From NCBI GenBank assembly GCA_947172415.1, contig OX359193.1, forward strand, positions 1,482,501 through 1,546,500: a stretch of DNA of 64,000 nt, written 5' to 3'. This document shows, in pieces, positions 1,297-18,756 of this stretch (position 1 is the stretch's first letter; each line of letters opens with the position of its first letter). This DNA comes from Chondrosia reniformis. Taxonomy: Eukaryota > Porifera > Demospongiae > Chondrillida > Chondrillidae. Under the pieces are notes generated by a model, which made no database searches, had not been told where the DNA came from, and saw nothing but the letters and a program-made list of their open reading frames with translations. The position numbers and the translations under genes are program-made.

Positions 1297-4200
1297 TCAT
1301 TGTTCCCCAATCTCCTTCATTTTCTCAGCCAGAGAAGGATTGCTAATCAGGAGGTCAGCCAACTTGGCCTTCATCTCAATGTTGTTGGTTTGCAGTACCA
1401 ATTTTAAAAGTGCATCCAGCAACACCTCATTATCCTTTTGCTTGGAACCATTTGTTTGCAGTGAATGTACAACACTTGAAGGCCTAGGGCTGGCTTCAGT
1501 TTGCAATTCATTCAGTTTGATCTCTACACTAGCTAGCGAATCTGAACGTGAATCTTTAGGTGGAGTGGCTGTAGACTCAATGCTTGACATTCGGCTTCTA
1601 TTGCCAGAGGAGTTATTTGTGTTGTCATCTTCATCTGTTGGAGCACTAGGCTCAAGTGAAAGCTTCCGTGGCGCAGGGACTGGAGAAAGGGCATGTCTCA
1701 CAACAGTTTCGCGAGGTCTCAGAGGCAGAGCTGGACTCTTGCTTCTAGAACGTATGGCTCTAGATCTTCTCTGTCTTCCTTGACTGTCCGACTCTTCACT
1801 TGAGGAAGTGGATCTTTGTTCAAGGATTTCTCCAAGGTGAATTTCCTGTGTATTTTTTCTTAAAGTTTTCCTTTTAACAATTGTTTTCCTATAAATCGTG
1901 TTCAAAGTACTTCCTTTACAAAGCACCATGAGTTATACCAAGAATATAATATGTATATACGTATTGCCGATTATAGTATCTAATTTTAGTGATTGCTTTA
2001 AAAACATAATTAAGCCTAATATAAATAATATTTGACTGATTGATGATCTTTTAGATGCATTGGCCATCTGATTTTTTAGCATCTAGAAATGTACAGTCTG
2101 GTAAATCTTCTCCAGTGTGTCTAAAGATGACCCATGCATCTAAAAGATGTATAAGTTCGAATTCGACGCAAGAACTATTCTCTCTATATATAACTGCATG
2201 GACTAACTGAAGTTATATTAGATTTAAAAACTTGCTGTAGCTATAGGTATAGGCTGCATTGCATGCATCTTGCATACTATAACATGTCTTACTTCCTAGG
2301 AACAGCTCTTTTTTGGCTCTCTGGGACACTCCTATAATATTTTCCCTCAGAATCCAGCTCTTGCAAATATGTTGCTGGAAATAGCCCTATTTTGCTGTTA
2401 TACTTGACAATCCACCATCCAGAAATGGACTTTTTCAATATTTCCACAGTCTTACCCTCTTCTATGGAGAGCTCATCAGCATCCTGTGCTTTGTAACCAT
2501 TTGTAGTTTTGTATGGTGGATTCTTCCCTATATATATATACGTACATAATACAGAATAGGATGAATACTATACAGATTATAGAACAGTACGTAGGAATTG
2601 ACAAAAACAACAGGCAAAGTTGTGATGAGACACGGCATAAGTGCTAACAACCAAACAATGTGACATATTACACAGACTGGCAGTTGATATGTGATTGAAC
2701 TTTAGTATATGTATATTTTACTCAAGAATCTTTTAACGTTATCCTCTAAACTACGTATGTATATATATATTACATAATTAGTCACCCTCTGAGTTTGTAA
2801 TGCTCAAAGCCCCATATCGTCACACTATCCCACACTGGTATATAAAATAATATACTTTAGGTAATTACTTATATACACAAGTAACACATCACACCTTCCA
2901 TTTTAAAATTACCTTTTTATGTGTAATCACACCATGCAACAAGCATTCATTGCAGTGATTTAGGGCTATGCACAGTTATTGGAACGTATCCAAACAGCTC
3001 TCAAATAAATAAAACTAACAAACTAACCATATTTTGAGATAATTGCTTCCTCATTCATCTTTAAATTGTCTTCTTCTTCTTCACTTGTGGCCTCACTGCT
3101 CTTTCCAGAATCATCTGATTTTGCATCTCTCTTTGGCTCCAAGTATGAGCATGGAGCCCAGCCTTCCTTCCTTTCAACAGCTACAAACCACCATCCTATA
3201 GCATTGGCCATTAAGTATATATATGTATATACTTTATATATGGCTGATGGAGCTATACGTATATATAGAACACAACTACACTGCATGCATACAGTTTACT
3301 CTTATGTTTAGTAAATTGTTGGATTGCCATGTATGTTTGAAATGTGGTCAGGATACGTTCATGCTAAAGGTGTTGATGGAAAATACATTTGCTATATTAT
3401 ATTTTATAACCATACCATTTCAATTTGGACCCTTGCATATGCATCACTGAATTAAGAGTATTAATTGTATACATATATTATATACACTATAGTCTTGTAT
3501 ATAATATATATGTATAATTTGAGCCTATATAATTTGCATGTACGTAAGTACGGGTATTTCAATATATTTACATAAGTCTGTAGTTATATATACTGTTTGC
3601 CTCACCATCCTCCTCTTTATCAATAACTGTGACGCTGTCACCCTCTTTTAGTGTGACTTGTGAGCTGTCCTCAGCTTCATAGTCGTCGATTGCTTTATAG
3701 TCTTCAGTTTGGATCACTTTTCCATCAGGAACACAAAGTCCCAGACTATCCTCATCCTCATTTGGAGATCCTGGTCTGGAAATGGGACCCAAATAGCTTG
3801 ATGGCACCCAGCCAACTTTGGAGTTGCTATTTAAAACCATCCACCAACCACTATCATCCCTTCTTAGGACCTTAACAATATCTCCAATTTTAACTGATAG
3901 CTGTTTTGAATCCTCTTCTGAGGTGTACTCTTTGGTGACAACTAATTCATCCCATTGGCTGCCTAATCATGTAATCATAAAGAGGATACATATTAAGTTA
4001 TTCGATTGAATGGGCTGAATATATATACGTAATTAAGTATATATAAGACTTGAAATCTGCATGTGGGTTCATATACTATATACAGCTTCTTAAGTGTCTA
4101 CCTGTTGGAACTTTGAGGGGATGTAAAGATGGCTGCCTTTTCCAATCTTTCCTATTTAGAGAAAATTTCATAAATTAAGCATTTTAGATAATATAGTTTA

Positions 4201-6155: not shown

Positions 6156-9100
6156 ATGGACTTGAACAAGAAAATAGGTTCCTTTGATGTCGCTGTCATA
6201 GGGGCAGGAGTAATAGGTAGTTCTGCTGCCTACAATTTGACCAAGCTAGCTAAAAAAAAGAAAATTGTACTAGTGGAACAAGTACGTAATCTTGTCCACA
6301 TTTCCGACCATATTGTAAATGGACTTGAGTTACCAGTAATGAGTAATAAGTGCAGTATACCATTTTGTTGTATTATAAAAGTCATAGCTAAATGTACATG
6401 TGATCGTCCTATGGCAAAATTAATTTTACAAAAGTATTATGTATTTGGTTCAATATATAAAGTCTTAATTTAGTTTAGTTGAATCATTTAACAAGTAACT
6501 GAAAACAGTCAACAGTGAACTTTCAATTTTAAATTAAATGCAATATATTATTTTATTATTATTATAGTTAAATATATTTAAAGTCATTCATGATCAAACA
6601 AGTAATTCAAGCTAAAAAATAAAGTCTCTTATTCTTAAATGTAAGGAAGAAACACAAGGTCTCCTTAATCAAAATATTTCCCCTTTTAGAAGGTCTGACG
6701 GGTATAATAACCTTAAATTGTCCACTTTGTAGTTTACCTGGTTACCTCTGTGAATGAAGCATGTTGTATCAATGCTTTGATGTTGTAGTGTTGTATAGTG
6801 TATACTCCTAGCAATGCAGGAAATTCACTAATTGGAGGGTTTATTTTGAGTAGCATTTTAGACATGTTATAGATAATAAAAGTCCTGAATCAACCAAAGT
6901 GTCAATGTACTGTACATTGAAATACTATATAGCTATTCATAAAAATGGCCTCCTCAAGCACCAGGCACCAAAGGTGAAAAGGCATGTGTTTAGGGTGTGA
7001 TTTCCATGTGAAACATAAGCAGGCCTTTTGTATCAGGTATCCATATGTTTCTTCATAGAGCAAGATTCACAGCTGTCAGCACAATTACGTTATTCATAAT
7101 TTACAAATATACATACTGTCTATTGTTATCCTTGCGTGATTGCAAAGTGTAATTTTAAAATGGATACACTTTCACATGTTCACATCTAAGGGTCACACAG
7201 CTAGTACTGCAACTGTCATACCAATAGTTGGTTATGTACATGAAAGTTAAATCCTATGCATTAAGGGTATTTCTATATCACCCAATAGGATATAATAAAG
7301 GATGTCAATCACACAACTTCTCGCATACGTATACCATACCTAGAGTATATGTGTGAATATTATCTGGTCTAATTCAATTAAAGGACTCCATGGTTAGGTT
7401 TCTGGTTTGAGCTGTGGACTAGATATATATTATTGATATTACTTGTAGATTTCTTGTGTTGTGAGGCAGGAGGTATTATCCCCCTCAATATATCCCCCTG
7501 AAGAAAGTCAAATATTTAATACCATACAAATATATTGAAGTATGTTGCCCCCTCAATTCATCTTGTAATATGTTATACATATAAATAAACCCAAACTTGT
7601 GACTACAGATTCTACGTATGTGCGTTAATGTCTCATCTGTTACACCCCTAGTTTGATGCTCACCACACCAGAGGTAGCTCCCATGGCGGGTCGCGGATCA
7701 CTAGGAAGGCCTATAACAAGCCGTACTATGCTGCCATGATGGAAGAATGCTTTCCAATGTGGGAAACGTTGGAAAAGGAATCCGGAGAAGACATATATCA
7801 GTACGAGCTCATTGCACATTTATATAGTATGCCTATACATTAGCATAATAAAATAATGATTCCTTCTAACTGAGTCGAACTACACTTTTGGATGGAACAT
7901 CTTTCAACTTGTCGAGCATATAAAGACCTTGTTTTGGTGTATCTTTCCATCAGTCACACTCAGGATCAAAACGTTTGACCAAATTTATGCTGAAAATGCG
8001 TCTTTAGATGTTTAAAAGATATTCCATCCAAAAGACAATATTAGCATACCTATAGTACATAATTATACATAATTATATAAAGGTGGTATACGATGAGATG
8101 GAAGATATATTTAGATATAGAGAAATATTTCTAAAAATGGATATTTATTTAATATTTTATTTTGTTATATATACATCATGTCCATGGTTTCAGCTAAAAA
8201 GGATATAATAAAGGGATATCAGTTGCACATCTACATAAGCACTATGTACTAATGATTGGATGGAAACCTAGTATGCAACAAGCCCATAACCTCGTGATAA
8301 AGATAAACCTTTTAAGTAGGCTTTATAACTGAAATCTTATTGTTTGCATATATTTCCTGAATTAGCAATTTAGATTACATCTAAATGCACCATTATACTC
8401 CAAATGTATATTACATTATCTTTGTAGCTCCTATGGATAATCTAACATGCTATTTTTCTTACATATATATGCATGCTACATCTGCTCTATAGTAAAGGCC
8501 TATAGGGAACTAAACCTAATGAGAGCTTGGGATGAGAATATATGTATATAAGAGTTTTCTCTTCTTCTGCTTCTTCTCTTCTTCTGCTTCTTCTCTTCTT
8601 CTCCACTGGAACAGACAGCTGTTCCTATGCAATACATACATAGTTGCATATCTAAAACCCTGTGCTGTGCTATATATGTACGTAGCTCTCATGTTGTGGG
8701 GTTACTGTACTGTACCAGCATCTGGTTAAAATATATGTAGCCAAACTGGGAATTTATACTTTGCACCTGAAGATGAGAAGGAATTGAAGGACATACTTAG
8801 CACATTAAGAAAACTAAAGGTCCCCCACAAATCACTAAGCGTACAGGAAGTGAACGCTGAGTATCCATGTTTCAATATACCAGAAGGACATTCTTGTGTG
8901 GTAGAACCTCAAGCTGGCATTCTTAGGGCTTCAGTTGCAGTGAAGGCTTTTCAAGTTGGTTTGGGATTGGGTATATTCTATTAACACAATTTTGGCATAC
9001 GTATACACACGCACAATTATACAGTACAGTAAAACCTCTGAAGAAAGGAAACATTGGTGAGTAAGAATTAGTGAGGTTATCCTTTCTTAAAGGTTATGCC

Positions 9101-12100
9101 TATATTTTTGTCCTATTTTGAAATCAATCGGGGCAAGTAGTTTGTCCACTGTAGAGAGGCTGGCTGTTGTTTGGAGGGTCCTTTATTAGAGGTTTTACTG
9201 TATATCAAGTGGAACAGCCTATTGTAGCTAATATCACTCACAGACTAATCTGCTTTGTTTAAGGAATTAGGGGAAAATCGTGCCTCTGACTATTCTACTT
9301 CCATATAAGGAAGGTCCTAGTCTTTGTACCCAACTCATGCACTTCTTAACTCATAGAATGTATGTATAACCAATGTCCATATATCCTATATAATTTCCAT
9401 TGCACTGTATGCAATTATATCCTCTTTGTGTGCACTGGCATGTGTACTCTGTATGTATGCATTAATACACACAGTTAAATAAAGAAGTAAATGATCATAA
9501 GAAGATATTGCATCAAGTGACTGAAGTGTTATCCTGGCTAGGGGGAGTAAACTATTAATGGTTCACTTATTCATCATAGCCTTTACGGAGGCTTTGTTGC
9601 AATTAGTTCATAAAGTTAAATGTATAGGAAGTGACGGCCTTACCTTAGCCAGACTTTATAGCCAGTATTGTATATGTATGCCTATCACATGTTCAATGAC
9701 GTTATTATACTTTGCAGAAAGTTTTCCAGTTGAATGGTGGGCTCCTTTTGGACCACCACAAGGTACTAAGGATTGACCCAGGGTTCGATACCATTCTTGT
9801 TTTCACAAGTAAAGGAGTTATTGTCACCAAGCAACTCATAATTGCAGCAGGTACATTGAAAAGGAGTTTGTCTGACAATATATATATACGAGTTCTGAGA
9901 AATATCCGTCTTGTAAAATACTTCATTTCGTATGTAGGAGTCATGGTTTAAAGGTTTATGAATATACATACGTATATTTGATGCAGTCTATATTCCTCTA
10001 ATTTGAAAGGCTGAAATATCAATATATAAGTATATCAATAAATATATCAATTTCTTTATTGTATTTATGATTGTTTATTGAGGATTCTTTCCAACCATAC
10101 ACAGGAGCCTGGACCTCATCTCTCCTTTCACCTTTGAACCTTGACCTCCCACTGAAGGTAAATATTTCATTAATGTTACTAGCAAGAGTGTGTTCATAGG
10201 CTTCTGTCTTTGTATGAATGCACCAATTGTTCAATTCTTGTAATAGAATACCCATAGCAGTGCTCCTGCTAATAGCTTTAAGCTCACTTTCATGGTATAT
10301 GCCGCTATTGTATTACAGTATTTGTCATGAATGAGTAGGAAGCTGGACGGGAGGAGATATGGTTCAAGGATTGTTTTTTTGTAGCAAAATATAATTCTCA
10401 TACGAATGCATCATGGTGCTCTTACAATAGGATATATATGTATATATTGTGTGTATATACCCCAGTTAGAAATTGATATGTATTTGAGCTACGTATGTAT
10501 ACATATGTGTGGATAGTACAGTAATATAAAGTTAGTACTTGACAATTGCTTCATTGTAAATATTTCTACTTCTGTTAATATTCATGAAAAATCTAAGATA
10601 CCATTTTCCTAAATGCTATATGCTTATTCTGTAAAAAGAGCCTATAGGGGAACTAAACCTGAAGAGAGCTTTAGATTCATGTATGTCTTTCTACGTACAT
10701 ACGTACATTGAAATGTCTGTCTGGATCTTCCTTTTGAACTGATAGAAGTATACAGGCTAAGACATTCAGAAAACTGAACTCAAGTTATTAGAAGCAGATT
10801 CCCTTATTCTCTGTCAGGCCTTTAGCACTTCCAAAGCTAATACGTACAAATCAACTCAGTTTTCTTTTTAATGGTTTATCTTTCGATTCTTGAGCATCTA
10901 GAGATGCCTGCATGTACAGTATCTATTATTTTATATATGTAGGTATTAAATCCTACTTTCCTTTACTGGCACACAAAGGACCGCAGTCTGTATTATAATA
11001 TGCCATGCTTTGTTAAGATGCCATCTTATAATGCACACAAGGAAAAACATAGAACATTCTACTGTGGGACACCACCTTTGGAATATCCAGGACTTGTTAA
11101 GGTATATGAATGATTTTTATCTCTTTTCTCCTTTTTTATATTCAACTGCTTGATGCGCAATAATCAAGCCTTTCAGAATAGATGTACTCTACTGGAAAGC
11201 AAATTTTGGTAGTTTAAGCAGGTTTGCTTTTGGGGCTTATGGAACTGGAAAGGATCACATTTTCTATGGCTCCTCTCCTCTAGAATATCCCAATTTAGTT
11301 AAGGTAAAGCCTGTAATTACAGTGTATTTAATTGTGTATGTATTATAATTAATTGGGTTCTTTTAAAGTTTAAAATAGTCAATTAAATGTGGCAATCAGA
11401 GCAACCGGCCATCTGTAGATTTCCCATATAAACTAAATATGCACAACAGTAAATCTAAAGTGATGTTTCTTAAACTACGTACCTCCTTTATGCTCATAAT
11501 AGTGACCTTGCATGGCAGCCTCCCACTTCCACACTCTTGCACTCTCCTACTTCCACACTCTTGCACTCTCCCACTTCCACACTCTTGCACTCTCCTACTT
11601 CCACACTCTTGCACTCTCCCACTTCCACACTCTTGCACTCTCCCACTTCCACACTCTTGCACTCTCCTACTTTCCGTAACTGTGGTGGCCTTCTTCTAGA
11701 TATGTGCTCATGATGGGGTGGAGGTGAATCCTGATAGAAGAGACTTGCAGGGTGCACAAGCCCATAGCACATCAAGAGTAAAGTGGTTCATAGACAAGTA
11801 CTTCAAAGGAGTTGACAGTGTTGCACCGGCCATTGTAGAGCACTGTATGTATACACTCACTCCAGATGAGGACTTTATCATTGACAAGCATCCTCTCTAT
11901 CAGAATATAGCCATAGGAGCTGGTTTCTCAGGTACTACATGTAAACATACTAGATATGCCACATCTTTTAACTCTTTAACGTCAAAAACTATCACAGGAT
12001 TAAATTTCAGGTTTCATATGGCATGAAACCTATTTGAAACTTCTTGAACAGTCAGGTTTCAAAGGGTGCTCAAGAATGTGCTATTAGATTAATTTCACAG

Positions 12101-12706
12101 CTTTCAAGTTTTTAACAATCCCCTTTCCCAAGTTTTATATATACAAACTTTCATACCTTCTGAAATAAGTCCAAAGAGTTTCAAATAGGTTTCATGCCTT
12201 CTGAAAACTGAGATTTGATCCTGTGTCTGTTGTGGTTTAAATATTATTTTGGTTGAATGTTTTAATTGACCCCAAGCATCTTCATTTAGCAGTGAAGACA
12301 CTGAAAGAGTATACAATATAACCTCTGAAGAAAGGACACATTAGGGAGTAAAAATTAGTCCCTTTTAGAGAGGTTGTCCCTTCTTAGAGGTTATGCCTAT
12401 ATTCCTTATCCTATTTTGAAGCAAGTAGTTTGTCCACTGTAGAGAGGTTGGCTGTTGTTTGGAGGGTCCTTTATTAGAGGTTTTACTGTATAAGTATCAT
12501 GTATACTGTATTATATTACAAATAAAATGTTTATGTGGCATTTGGCAATCATGATGTAGAATATTCTTTATGTAGGACATGGCTTCAAATTGGCACCTGT
12601 TGTGGGTAAGCTCCTTGGTCAATTAGCTTTGGATCTGCCCACTGAGTTTAATATGAATCCCTTCAAAGTTACACGTTTCCCAACAAAGGTCTTCAGCAAG
12701 ATGTAA
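6156..12706 (+). CDS. PIPOX: peroxisomal sarcosine oxidase-like FAD amine oxidase
   Basis: Eight coding exons: 6156-6281, 7652-7800, 8741-8954, 9718-9850, 10105-10157, 10943-11101, 11700-11931, 12576-12706 (398 residues). A second version of exon 6 lies at 11169-11303 and gives 390 residues. The product has the FAD dinucleotide motif GAGVIG at 16-21, the family motif RGSSHGGSR, and the C-terminal signature GAGFSGHGFKLAPVVGK. A cysteine in EHCMYT matches the covalent flavin cysteine of this family. The last residues, SKM, form a PTS1-type peroxisomal signal. Family members oxidise sarcosine, pipecolate or proline-like secondary amines, making H2O2. The start at 6156 fits the family N-terminus; an in-frame ATG at 6081 would add 25 residues. 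Confidence 0.9.
8497..8625 (+). repeat. R1 dispersed element copy
   Basis: Member of the most frequent dispersed family of the window. It carries GGGAACTAAACCT...GAGAGCTT, then a (TTCTTC)-rich tract expanded here, then CTCCACTGGAACAGACAGCTG. It lies in intron 2 of the oxidase gene. Confidence 0.6.
9027..9200. mobile_element. 174-bp MITE with CAGTAAAACCTCT termini
   Basis: Ends are inverted (CAGTAAAACCTCT ... AGAGGTTTTACTG), and TA dinucleotides flank both sides (9025-9026, 9201-9202). This matches a TA-inserting Tc1/mariner-pogo type non-autonomous element. A diverged sister copy is at 12314-12488. It lies in intron 3 of the oxidase gene and has no coding capacity. Confidence 0.7.
10585..10678 (+). 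repeat. R1 dispersed element, truncated copy
   Basis: Carries the 5' part of R1 (ACCATTTTCCTAAATGCTAT ... GGGGAACTAAACCTGAAG) and stops just after GAGAGCTTTAGAT. The pyrimidine-rich 3' half is missing. It is intronic, in the oxidase gene. Confidence 0.55.
11169..11303 (+). CDS. PIPOX: alternative exon 6 of the sarcosine oxidase gene
   Basis: An open exon of 135 bp (45 codons) follows AG at 11167-11168 and precedes a GTAAAG donor. It enters and leaves in phase 0, exactly like exon 6 at 10943-11101. Both encode the same protein segment: an (I/L)xVLYW- or FLYW-type start and an end of PLEYPGLVK or PLEYPNLVK. Using both in tandem would keep frame but duplicate the segment. With this exon the protein is 390 residues, the length I recall for human PIPOX, and it has the glycine-rich GAYGTGKDH. 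The acceptor has a poor pyrimidine tract, so the exact 5' border is less certain than the 3' one. Confidence 0.72.
11521..11675. repeat. 24-bp pyrimidine-strand minisatellite
   Basis: Six full copies plus a partial one of a 24-bp unit (CTTCCACACTCTTGCACTCT with a variable CCCA/CCTA). The period is a multiple of three, so open frames run through it on both strands; these are not genes. It ends about 25 bp before the acceptor of oxidase exon 7 at 11700. Confidence 0.9.
11996..12222. repeat. R6 fold-back element
   Basis: Near-inverted ends: AGGATTAAATTTCAGGTTTC and GGCATGAAACCTATTTGAAA on the left are matched by TTTCAAATAGGTTTCATGCC and GAGATTTGATCCT on the right. Relatives lie at 18967-19117 and 19550-19793 inside gene B. 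It is a non-autonomous fold-back repeat in the last intron of the oxidase gene. Confidence 0.65.
12314..12488. mobile_element. diverged sister of the 9027 MITE
   Basis: Clearly similar over its whole length to 9027-9200, with the same internal text around TGTCCACTGTAGAGAGGTTG. The left terminus is mutated (CAATATAACCTCTG) while the right one is intact (AGAGGTTTTACTG, then TA). Confidence 0.65.
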
Positions 12707-13457: not shown

Positions 13458-13766
13458 CAGTGGCGGATCCAGAAACTTATTTTGGGTGGTGCACAGGAAG
13501 CAATTAGATTACGCAAGACGTCAAAGAAAGATGGCGTTCAGCAAGAAGGAAGAGAGTAATAGAACATTTTAGACTACTGCATAGTCTAAGTACATCGTAT
13601 GAAGCTGAAACTGGCTAGTTACCGTTTCTAATGTATGATTAGTTAAAATCGTTTTTGTGCTAGTAATAATGGTAATTCCTAAGAAAAAAAATAGAAGCTT
13701 GTCTGGGCAGTGGCGGATCTAGGGTGGTGCCTGGGCCCCCCAGGCACCACCCTAGATCCGCCACTG
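13458..13766. mobile_element. 309-bp inserted element with CAGTGGCGGATC termini
   Basis: Left end CAGTGGCGGATCCAG and right end CTAGATCCGCCACTG are inverted. CTTTT flanks both sides (13453-13457 and 13767-13771). The right 59 bp (13708-13766) form a perfect hairpin: 28-bp arms and a 3-nt loop, beginning with the same CAGTGGCGGATC. A related sequence without the insertion is present near 14720-14775, where the flanks join directly. The termini resemble those of hAT-type elements, but the 5-bp duplication is not the usual 8. Confidence 0.65.
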
Positions 13767-14212: not shown

Positions 14213-14259
14213 ATTAAAAGCGTCCTATCGACAAGATTAGTCGATAGGACGCTTTTAAT
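14213..14259. repeat. perfect 20-bp-arm hairpin
   Basis: Two perfectly complementary 20-nt arms (starting ATTAAAAGCGTCCTATCGAC) flank a 7-nt loop. It is CpG-containing, unlike its AT-rich surroundings. It lies in non-coding DNA; its function, if any, is unknown. Confidence 0.85.
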
Positions 14260-15974: not shown

Positions 15975-18756
15975 TTATATAGAATTGCTCATTTCCTTCA
16001 TTTTCTCGGCCAGAGAAGGATTGCTAATCAGGAGGTCAGCCAACTTGGCCTTCATCTCAATGTTGTTTGCTTGCAGTACCAATTTTAAAAGTGCATCCAG
16101 CAACACCTCATTATCCTTTTGCTTGGAACCATTTGTTTGCAGCGAATGTACAACACTTGAAGGCCTAGGGCTGGCTTCAGTTAGCCATTCATTCAGTTTG
16201 ATCTCTACACTAGCTAGCGAATCTGAACATGAATCTTTAGGGGGAGTGGCTGTAGACTCAATGCTTGACATTCGGCTGCTATTGCCAGAGGAGTTATTTG
16301 TGTTGTCATCTTCATCTGTTGGAGCACTAGATTCAAGTGAAGATTTCCTTGGTACAGGAACTGGAGAGAGGACACATCCCACAAGACTAGTACTCTTTCT
16401 AGGCCTTGGAAGTACACTTAGGCTCCTGGTTCTAGAGCTAATTGCTCTAAATCTTACTTGTCTCTCTGACACTGAGGAAGTGGATTGGTGTTTATCAAAG
16501 TGGATATCTTGATGAGTATGTCTTCTTAAAAGATACTTATCATTTTTAGTTTTCCTAATGTAGTTAGAAAATGTTTCCTAGAACAAATTATATGACAGGC
16601 TCGTAGCTTAATATAAGAGTGACATATATACATAATTATATACCTATACACATCAAATATCATTATTATATAACCAATGCTTTACTAATAACCTTAAAAT
16701 TGGCCTTTAATACTTTCCTATATCCCATCAGCCTCTATATATATTTAGAATCAAATACATACATCAAGCAGAAGTATAGCTATCTATAGCTCTTGTTTTA
16801 TATACCTCATACGTACTCAACTGTCTAACTTCAAAATCATATCCAAAGAAGTGCATGTTGCTATATAATAGGTAGATCTACATATGTAAATCTATGTAAA
16901 TTATCTAGATCTAGAGCTCAACATAAAGAAATTTCCAGAAAGATTTCCAGCATGGTCACTGATGAAGGGTGCATGCATGGTATTCCCAGAATCAGCTGAC
17001 TGACCAAGTGGAGCAGAAGATCAAAGAGAAAGCTTTGTATCCTCAACCAAAGCTCTCGCTCTATATAGATTTAGTTCCTACAGTCTTTTTACAGTGAAAA
17101 GGATACATATATTAAGAAAGAAATTTGTGTTTTAGAATTATAATTACTCATATACTCATACATATATTTGTAAAACAGTAATTCTTACTTGCTTGATGAT
17201 ACACCAGTGCCTTTATGACCTTCTGGAACACTCTTATAAAGATTCCCTTCAGAACCAAACTCTTGTGAATATAATGTTGGGAAGAGCCCTATTTTATCAT
17301 TGTTTTTGACAATCCACCATCCAATAGTAGGTGTTGTCATGCTAGCTGTCATTTTACACTCCTTATCATCATCCTCATCATCACCATTACCGTCATCATC
17401 ATCACCATTACAGTCATCATCACCATTACCGTCATCATCACCACCATTACCGTCATCATCATCTCCATTACCGTCATCATCATCACCATTACCGTCATCA
17501 TCACCATTACTGTCATCATCACCATTACCGTCATCATCATCACCATTACTGTTATCATCATCATCATCATGTTTTCTGGTTTTATTTTTAAAAGTAGCTT
17601 TTTGGGGGATTGGTGGCAGTTCCCTCAGTCCTTTTTTCTTCATAATATTCATAACAGCCTCACAACCAGACACTCCTTCATCCTGCATAGCATATAATAA
17701 GCAAAGGTTTTAAACAAAACCGTACATGTGTAGTGTCGAGAAGTGACCATGGCCAGTTAATACTGTATGCATGTATATATAATATTTGATAATGAAATTT
17801 ACATTTAGGCTGGCATCTTCTGGGTCTAAGCTTAATAAAGAACTTGCTGGAACTACTCCTTCCTGTCCATTAAACCTACAATTAATATATATATATGTAC
17901 ACACAAGGGTATACTATGTAATTATTTAATGTTAATGGAAACTGGTTAGTATATATTAGCATTCAATTGCATCTTACTATATAGCTACCTCACTTTCCAC
18001 CATCCACTTAAGTTCATTGTTAAAACCTCAACTTTGGCATTCAGAGGAAGAGATACTTCATCTGGCATTGTGGCAGTGTACTCCTTGATAACCCAGTGCT
18101 TATGGAAATTGTTTGGCCTTTTCAATGAAGCCTCTCCATTAGAAATTGAATTCTTTTCATGTTCGTCAACCTTTACACATAAATCTTTAGCTCCCTTTGG
18201 CTCCAAATAGGAAGAAGGCACCCAACCAGTTCTGTCACCCACAACTGCTAGCCACCAACCTACATTATGTACACATGGAAATAATGTACATAATTGCTAT
18301 TTCCACTTAGAAACTCTCTCTATATACAATACCATCACAATATTATAACTATAAACTTTGCTGGCACATACCATCTTCATCTTTATCAAGTACAGATATT
18401 TCTGTTCCTTCTTTAAAGGAAACTTGGTTGGTGTCTTCAGTTTCATAATCAGCTATGGAGACATACATTTCAATGGATCCAGCTGGTTCCTTCTCCCCTG
18501 CATCAAGGACTCCCAAATAGTCTTCATTGTTTTCAGCAGTTGGCTCAGCAAGGTAGCTAGAGGGAACCCAACCTGTTTTCTTTCTGTCACCTTCTTTAGT
18601 GACATACCACCATTCTGTACATACGTATATAAATATTATGATAAAAATAATACACATATATTACATGCAGTTTCTTATATAATAATTAATGTATGCATAT
18701 GTGTCATTTGTGTGTATATATACATGTGTGTGTGTGGATTCTCCCATTCTGTACAT

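Follow-up and report, generated by a model that had tools for sequence, protein, structure and literature searches.

Two diverged versions of an active-site exon, probably spliced in a mutually exclusive way, in a sarcosine/pipecolate-type oxidase gene of the sponge Chondrosia reniformis

Background

Does a peroxisomal oxidase gene of a sponge specify two enzymes, by choosing between two copies of an exon that covers part of the active site? The question is raised by a gene in a 64,000-nucleotide window of the Chondrosia reniformis genome (contig OX359193.1, positions 1,482,501 to 1,546,500), in which two adjacent exons were read, in an original prediction made from the sequence, as alternative versions of one segment. 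Mutually exclusive duplicated exons are an already known kind of arrangement; what lifts this case above a common exon duplication is the swap of an active-site residue. Should both exons be in use, a single sponge gene would yield two oxidases whose pockets differ in shape, and switching of a catalytic site by splicing could be tested here directly.

Results and discussion

Gene model and identity of the protein

The oxidase gene has eight coding exon positions, placed by homology and splice sites, and the sixth of them is occupied by two exons, called here 6A and 6B. The features, in window coordinates, are:

6156..6281, plus strand: exon 1, with the ATG start codon and the GxGxxG motif for FAD binding, placed by homology to the paralogs
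7652..7800, plus strand: exon 2, FDAHHTRGSSHGGSRITR, with the counterparts of Arg49, Arg52 and Tyr55 of monomeric sarcosine oxidase (MSOX)
8741..8954, plus strand: exon 3
9718..9850, plus strand: exon 4
10105..10157, plus strand: exon 5, ending in phase 0 (LDLPLK)
10943..11101, plus strand: exon 6A, 53 codons, phase 0-0
11102..11168, plus strand: intron between 6A and 6B, 67 nt, GT...AG
11169..11303, plus strand: exon 6B, 45 codons, phase 0-0
11520..11672, plus strand: pyrimidine-rich minisatellite with a 24-bp unit, 6.4 copies, 96% matches, in the intron between exon 6B and exon 7
11700..11931, plus strand: exon 7, with the flavin-attachment cysteine and the His269 counterpart
12576..12706, plus strand: exon 8, with the C-terminal SKM, then stop

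The coordinates, phases and reading frames of the two exons and the 67-nt GT...AG gap are as originally predicted, and so are the products. The isoform with 6B has 390 residues and its flavin cysteine at position 319, presumably also the position in the human enzyme; the isoform with 6A is 8 codons longer (398 residues, Cys327). This cysteine is aligned to Cys315 of MSOX, and counterparts of Cys315, Lys265, His269, Arg49/52 and Lys348 are all aligned in both isoforms; covalent attachment of the flavin via the Cys315 counterpart is predicted. The peroxisomal assignment is upheld by the SKM end, which, like the SKL and SRL of the paralogs, we take to be a PTS1-like signal.

Both isoforms are above the cut-off of the DAO family (PF01266; 150.2 bits with 6A and 154.8 with 6B, cut-off 27.9), and their best full-length matches to MSOX chains in PDB have E-values of 4.6e-63 (6B) and 1e-61 (6A), with 215.7 and 211.5 bits, respectively, for the solved chain 1el5. 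In the NCBIfam model TIGR01377 (soxA_mon) they score 379.1 (6A) and 380.9 (6B), below the curated cut-off of 479.65 bits, a threshold set for assigning names to proteins of prokaryotes. Both isoforms (288.5 with 6A, 279.6 with 6B) and both paralogs pass the N-methyltryptophan oxidase model, whose cut-off is 257. The gene name is therefore based on similarity and not on the NCBIfam models, and by that token the gene is a peroxisomal sarcosine/pipecolate-type oxidase.

The minisatellite stops 27 bp upstream of exon 7; it could be a regulatory platform that binds pyrimidine-tract proteins, or a neutral repeat. Downstream of the gene there are two near-perfect inverted repeats (13710-13764 and 14213-14259, noticed by eye), possibly short mobile-element remnants. 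The oxidase gene is flanked on either side by minus-strand frames with an SH3 domain (Pfam SH3), at 3568-3966 and 18349-18660; similar frames lie at 1297-1932 and 15975-16577. Two of the four flanking frames tried had no match in Pfam, and two Ser-rich flanking frames have, by eye, long stretches in common. These shared stretches suggest that an SH3 gene was duplicated in tandem around the oxidase gene; the upstream SH3 gene may be head to head with it.

Paralogs and prokaryotic relatives

The genome has two related oxidase genes, on C4 (L038) and C12 (L039), modelled as proteins of 390 and 397 residues, with eight exons each and the same intron phases as in the window gene. Outside exon 6 the window gene is 56% identical to the C4 paralog and 55% to the C12 paralog, which are 75% identical to each other; their TIGR01377 scores are 401.4 and 362.8. 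Each has one exon 6, in the same position as in the window gene and of 50 and 58 codons:

3458-3607 (reverse-complement coordinates): single exon 6 of the C4 paralog
6254-6427: single exon 6 of the C12 paralog

No second exon 6 was found in the paralogs, either by tblastn across both fetched loci or in the introns flanking exon 6, read in all three forward frames. Within this genome the duplication is thus peculiar to the window gene; the three genes together make a natural comparison, the same exon having been diversified by gene duplication (C4, C12) and by exon duplication (window gene). Exon 6 of C4 and that of C12 also differ in length at the same place, by 8 codons, which makes exon 6 a length-variable spot among the three sponge genes. 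In the C12 paralog, MSOX positions 317 and 344 are occupied by Phe and Ala (SAQGF), in place of the Tyr and Gly found in 19 of 19 prokaryotic relatives of the alignment; to judge by these residues, the activity of this paralog may be altered.

A scan of the contigs for prokaryotic relatives gave no matches with one isoform as query; with an alignment as query it gave at least 39 loci, 22 of which were used for alignment. Three of these (L054, L057, L065) have no full frame and were removed, leaving 19 relatives that are not independent of one another (10 pairs are more than 70% identical, up to 97%).

Homology, age and constraint of exons 6A and 6B

On sequence comparison, 6A and 6B are homologous, diverged versions of one exon 6, as the original prediction had it. 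In pairwise alignment 18 of 44 residues are identical, with a score reached by none of 1000 shuffles, and in the family alignment 15 of 45 (33%). We scored the alternative forms of the protein against a family profile of 22 relatives that includes neither sponge isoform, and found 381.7 bits with 6A, 376.4 with 6B and 344.0 with neither exon; the gain of 32-38 bits per exon was equalled by none of 50 shuffles of each (best shuffled exons, 358.9 and 358.1). With TIGR01377, the form without either exon 6 scores 335.1. Frames that stay open for 45 and for 53 codons occur in 437/8428 (5.2%) and 255/8092 (3.2%) windows, respectively, in the gene's own introns, or in 3.2% and 1.5% when the minisatellite intron is left out.

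The two exons show signs of protein-level constraint (pN 0.41, pS 0.71, with changed codons at nine of the 18 identical residues); the constraint between 6B and the C4 paralog is weak (pN 0.48, pS 0.64, with pN equal to or above pS in 7% of bootstraps).

Either exon is more similar to exon 6 of the paralogs than to the other exon: 40-47% against 33% identity in the family alignment, and 48-52% against 41% in pairwise alignments. The pairwise alignments of 6A with the paralogs begin with a 10-residue offset, and identities were redone on the family alignment; every value that compares exon 6 of the window gene with a paralog falls there, and the one between 6A and 6B is still the lowest. The duplication is therefore old. 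In the exon 6 tree, two of the three groupings were tested and neither was rejected, the third being the one in the best tree (support 53/4); so short an exon does not place the duplication before or after the gene split.

The pair also falls within the WebScipio defaults for mutually exclusive exons, which are a length difference of at most 20 aa and a score of at least 15% of self (PMC3228551). The lengths differ by 8 aa, and the score ratios, computed with our own gap costs, are 0.163 relative to 6A self and 0.204 relative to 6B self, near the threshold of 0.15; both exons have GT-AG borders and phase 0-0.

A composite exon, with a 6A head and a 6B tail connected through internal sites, is not favoured by the scores. 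Of the 17 in-frame, stop-free forms scored, the best have 374.8 and 374.0 bits in the main profile, both below 6A and below 6B; the former is in fact 6A without its last two codons. In a prokaryote-only profile one composite (299.6) is between 6A (301.2) and 6B (299.0).

Active-site segment and opposite losses

Exon 6 is aligned to MSOX residues 220-265, including the pocket positions Met245 and Tyr254, and the final codon of both 6A and 6B is the counterpart of Lys265, which we take to be the oxygen-activating lysine. This bears out the claim that the segment is on the active-site side. The active site of MSOX is described as consisting of Arg52, Tyr55, Phe100, Met245, Tyr254, His269 and Lys348, and of the three substrate-pocket residues that the same source names, Phe100, Met245 and Tyr254, exon 6 spans the latter two (PMC12582975). 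According to that source, replacement of Tyr254 by Ala or Gly increases activity on cyclic imino acids and decreases activity on sarcosine, and the 245 position in a related enzyme tunes the preference between sarcosine and methyltryptophan.

The two exons depart from the family at different places. Tyr254, invariant in 19 of 19 aligned prokaryotic relatives, MSOX and both paralogs, is on the alignment used replaced in 6A by Cys (codon 11063-11065), with a Tyr one residue before, and the position of Arg222, occupied by R or K in all 19 prokaryotic relatives, by Asn; 6A retains Pro257 and the MPCF version of the family FPxF motif, with Val at 245. Exon 6B retains the P-F-R-I start, Arg222 and Tyr254-Gly255 (Tyr codon 11265-11267), and lacks an alignable Pro242, the proline of FPxF, and has Ser at Pro257; both prolines are present in 19/19 prokaryotic relatives, in MSOX and in both paralogs. 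The alignment of 6B is uncertain at 241-248, and its residue at 245 is not alignable. The Phe100 position, encoded outside the swapped segment, has Glu in both isoforms; only 9 of the 19 prokaryotic relatives have Phe there, and the sponge proteins have, on the alignment used, an acidic or basic residue (E, K, D).

That each exon retains conserved residues lost by the other fits a division of labour between them; such complementary losses also fit decay of one copy, and, given the conserved residues missing from each, either exon could be failing. The human enzyme retains Tyr254 and yet prefers pipecolate, and for this reason any prediction of substrate from the Tyr/Cys swap is offered only as a hypothesis.

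Splice sites and alternatives to exclusive use

Splice sites were scored with a matrix built on 45 donor and 46 acceptor sites, inferred by homology in myosin genes and in the three oxidase genes. In the myosin genes, with 45 adjacent exon pairs, 27 introns were placed and 26 served as controls, one being excluded as too low-scoring; the placement rules prefer canonical sites, and the controls are thereby biased to strong ones. Against such controls the 6A acceptor scores 13.3, above all 46, and the 6B acceptor, in an intron that ends in AAG, -0.0, at the 4th percentile. The donors are all ordinary (exon 5, 67th percentile; 6A, 60th; 6B, 31st). An alternative AG for 6B, ending at 11176, scores 1.1 compared to -0.0 for the acceptor at 11169, and was rejected as it would shift the frame; the same internal AG falls within the P-Y-R codons of both paralogs, indicating that it comes with the codon run. 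The acceptor at 11169 is backed by homology, as exon 6 of the paralogs starts at the same P-[FY]-R codons.

These scores bear on the possibility that 6B is a dying relic, skipped or included at trace level, with 6A the sole exon in use. The contrast between the two acceptors speaks for it, and so do the absence of Pro242, the Ser at Pro257 and the weak constraint against C4. A relic would, however, hardly be expected to have a 45-codon open frame with an ordinary donor, to add 32 bits in the profile (equalled by 0/50 shuffles), to share 41-47% identity with exon 6 of the paralogs, and to retain Arg222 and Tyr254, both of which 6A has lost. We consider the relic improbable, though less so than the other alternatives.

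The reverse, with 6A as a dispensable or failing copy and the normal 390-residue enzyme made from 6B, is close to the original prediction, which leaned to 6B as the normal version. That preference did not survive: 6A has by far the stronger acceptor, an ordinary donor, the FPxF proline and Pro257, and each exon departs at different conserved sites. The Cys at Tyr254 and the Asn at Arg222 count against 6A, and the 6B isoform is slightly ahead with 1el5 and the DAO family; 6A is slightly ahead in the relatives' profile and in the N-methyltryptophan oxidase model. We regard a failing 6A as very unlikely.

The 67-nt spacing had been proposed to hinder the joining of 6A to 6B, and this argument fails. 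The first intron of one paralog is 60 nt long, and 6 of the 27 myosin introns placed by homology are of 61-67 nt; with inferred introns of 60-67 nt in other genes, spacing as such was discarded as a barrier. An intron of this length being usable in the genome, as judged from homology-inferred introns, and the frame being preserved, 6A and 6B might be joined in series in a single 443-residue protein, and this form even has the highest summed TIGR01377 score of the four (381.9). That sum, however, comes from two stretches, and our own profile likewise splits the series protein into two overlapping matches (378.1) in which the same positions are repeated; none of the 22 aligned relatives has the segment twice, and a second copy of it would probably be unable to fold. 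We regard the series form as very unlikely.

Finally, 6A and 6B might be optional and not strictly exclusive, with some double or skipped transcripts and little functional difference, as could be expected from the sponge Amphimedon, where intron retention dominates (45% of alternative splicing events) and exon skipping accounts for 1.8%, so that exon-choice splicing looks rare in sponges (PMC4432959); that both exons have persisted for so long and have diverged in complementary ways suggests separate uses, and optional inclusion is the least probable of the alternatives.

Layout of the 67-nt intron

What stands of the original prediction, then, is a duplicated, alternative, phase-symmetric active-site exon; in place of the spacing, the layout of the 67-nt intron offers a lead on exclusivity from its sequence. 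An 18-nt pyrimidine run at 11120-11137 ends 31 nt short of the 6B acceptor. A run displaced in this way (at least 12 nt long, ending at least 25 nt upstream, longest in the last 67 nt) is seen in none of 47 control introns, a small sample in which the feature was sought after it had been noticed. Pyrimidine content directly before the acceptor is as low as that of 6B, or lower, in 12 of the 47. The intron has no internal AG, which is also the case for 16% of its shuffles; an AG-free stretch of the same length is found in 5/47 controls, although controls of 67 nt or less are unable to show a longer one. Candidate branch adenines are at 11109, 11113 and 11119, near the donor, at 11138 and 11144, after the tract, and at 11153, near the acceptor; only 11119, 11138 and 11153 match yTnAy. 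No inverted repeats linking the relevant introns were found, the region 10105-11931 having three short ones.

Mutually exclusive splicing as the best explanation

Mutually exclusive splicing of 6A and 6B is the best explanation of the duplicated exon 6, and one that we hold to be probable. Each exon would be used in some cells or conditions, one at a time, and splicing would produce two peroxisomal FAD oxidases differing solely in the segment of MSOX residues ~220-265, that is, in a stretch with the pocket positions 245 and 254 that ends on the Lys265 counterpart. The swap could alter substrate preference. Counting against the explanation are the weak 6B acceptor, the conserved residues missing from each exon, the weak constraint between 6B and C4, the top summed TIGR01377 score of the series form, the low share of exon skipping in Amphimedon and the lack of inverted repeats between the introns. 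The very strong acceptor of 6A suggests that it is the default exon, and the weak acceptor of 6B, with its far-upstream pyrimidine tract, that 6B is the regulated one.

As to how the two are kept apart, joining of 6A to 6B preserves the frame, and nonsense-mediated decay would for that reason be unable to enforce exclusivity. A branch point of 6B upstream of the tract would be only ~8-18 nt away from the donor of 6A, leaving too little room for 6A to be joined to 6B. Such steric exclusivity is possible, but we lean against it rather than for it.

The Tyr254-to-Cys swap, together with the mutant kinetics published in PMC12582975, gives a concrete prediction, namely that the Cys of 6A acts like the Tyr254Ala and Tyr254Gly mutants of the bacterial enzyme and makes 6A prefer cyclic imino acids such as proline or pipecolate to sarcosine. 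The combination of this effect with a donor-adjacent branch point and an independently evolved layout of the OGDH type (see below) is unlikely to hold in all its parts. If it does, mutually exclusive splicing would exchange the gate to the active site of this peroxisomal enzyme, with Tyr254 retained in 6B, and sponges, among the first animal lineages to branch off, would have evolved the OGDH-type arrangement independently.

Comparison with known systems

In titles and starts of abstracts of the open-licence literature, we found no report of PIPOX, sarcosine oxidase or pipecolic acid oxidase with such exons, and none of mutually exclusive exons in Porifera among the matches listed. Among the closest parallels is OGDH (2-oxoglutarate dehydrogenase E1), a metabolic enzyme with mutually exclusive duplicated exons 4a and 4b. 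The size-restricted intron between them is described as containing an extended AG-free zone and, downstream of its branch points, a large pyrimidine tract; these branch points lie at 25-41 nt from the donor of the upstream exon, and exclusivity is enforced by them (PMC7969005). The 67-nt sponge intron resembles it in the lack of internal AG and in the large displaced pyrimidine tract. The branch points have been mapped in OGDH, whereas those of the sponge are candidates from sequence, and exons 4a and 4b switch calcium sensitivity, while the sponge exon 6 covers part of the catalytic pocket. With inferred introns of 60-67 nt in other sponge genes, the vertebrate threshold of ~50 nt would not be simply transferable.

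Exons 3A and 3C of KHK (ketohexokinase) are likewise alternative exons of one metabolic enzyme, and the isoforms are reported to differ in substrate affinity (PMC6464065); this is a mammalian and unrelated enzyme, known from RNA and tissue data, whereas the sponge exons are known from sequence. Tandem mutually exclusive exons 15a and 15b of NALCN swap an E/K selectivity residue, comparable to the Tyr/Cys at position 254 in the sponge oxidase. NALCN is an ion channel; according to PMC3557258, its exon 15 junctions are already present in sponges, where the exon is single, and the duplication was placed in early bilaterians.

Also close are MSOX and the peroxisomal sarcosine/pipecolate oxidase, which belong to the same family and whose flavin cysteine and Arg49, Arg52, Tyr55, Lys265, His269 and Lys348 all have counterparts in the sponge gene. 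Compared to MSOX, the sponge gene differs in the Cys of 6A at Tyr254, in the rebuilt 241-248 stretch of 6B, and in the E, K or D that sponge proteins have at the Phe100 position.
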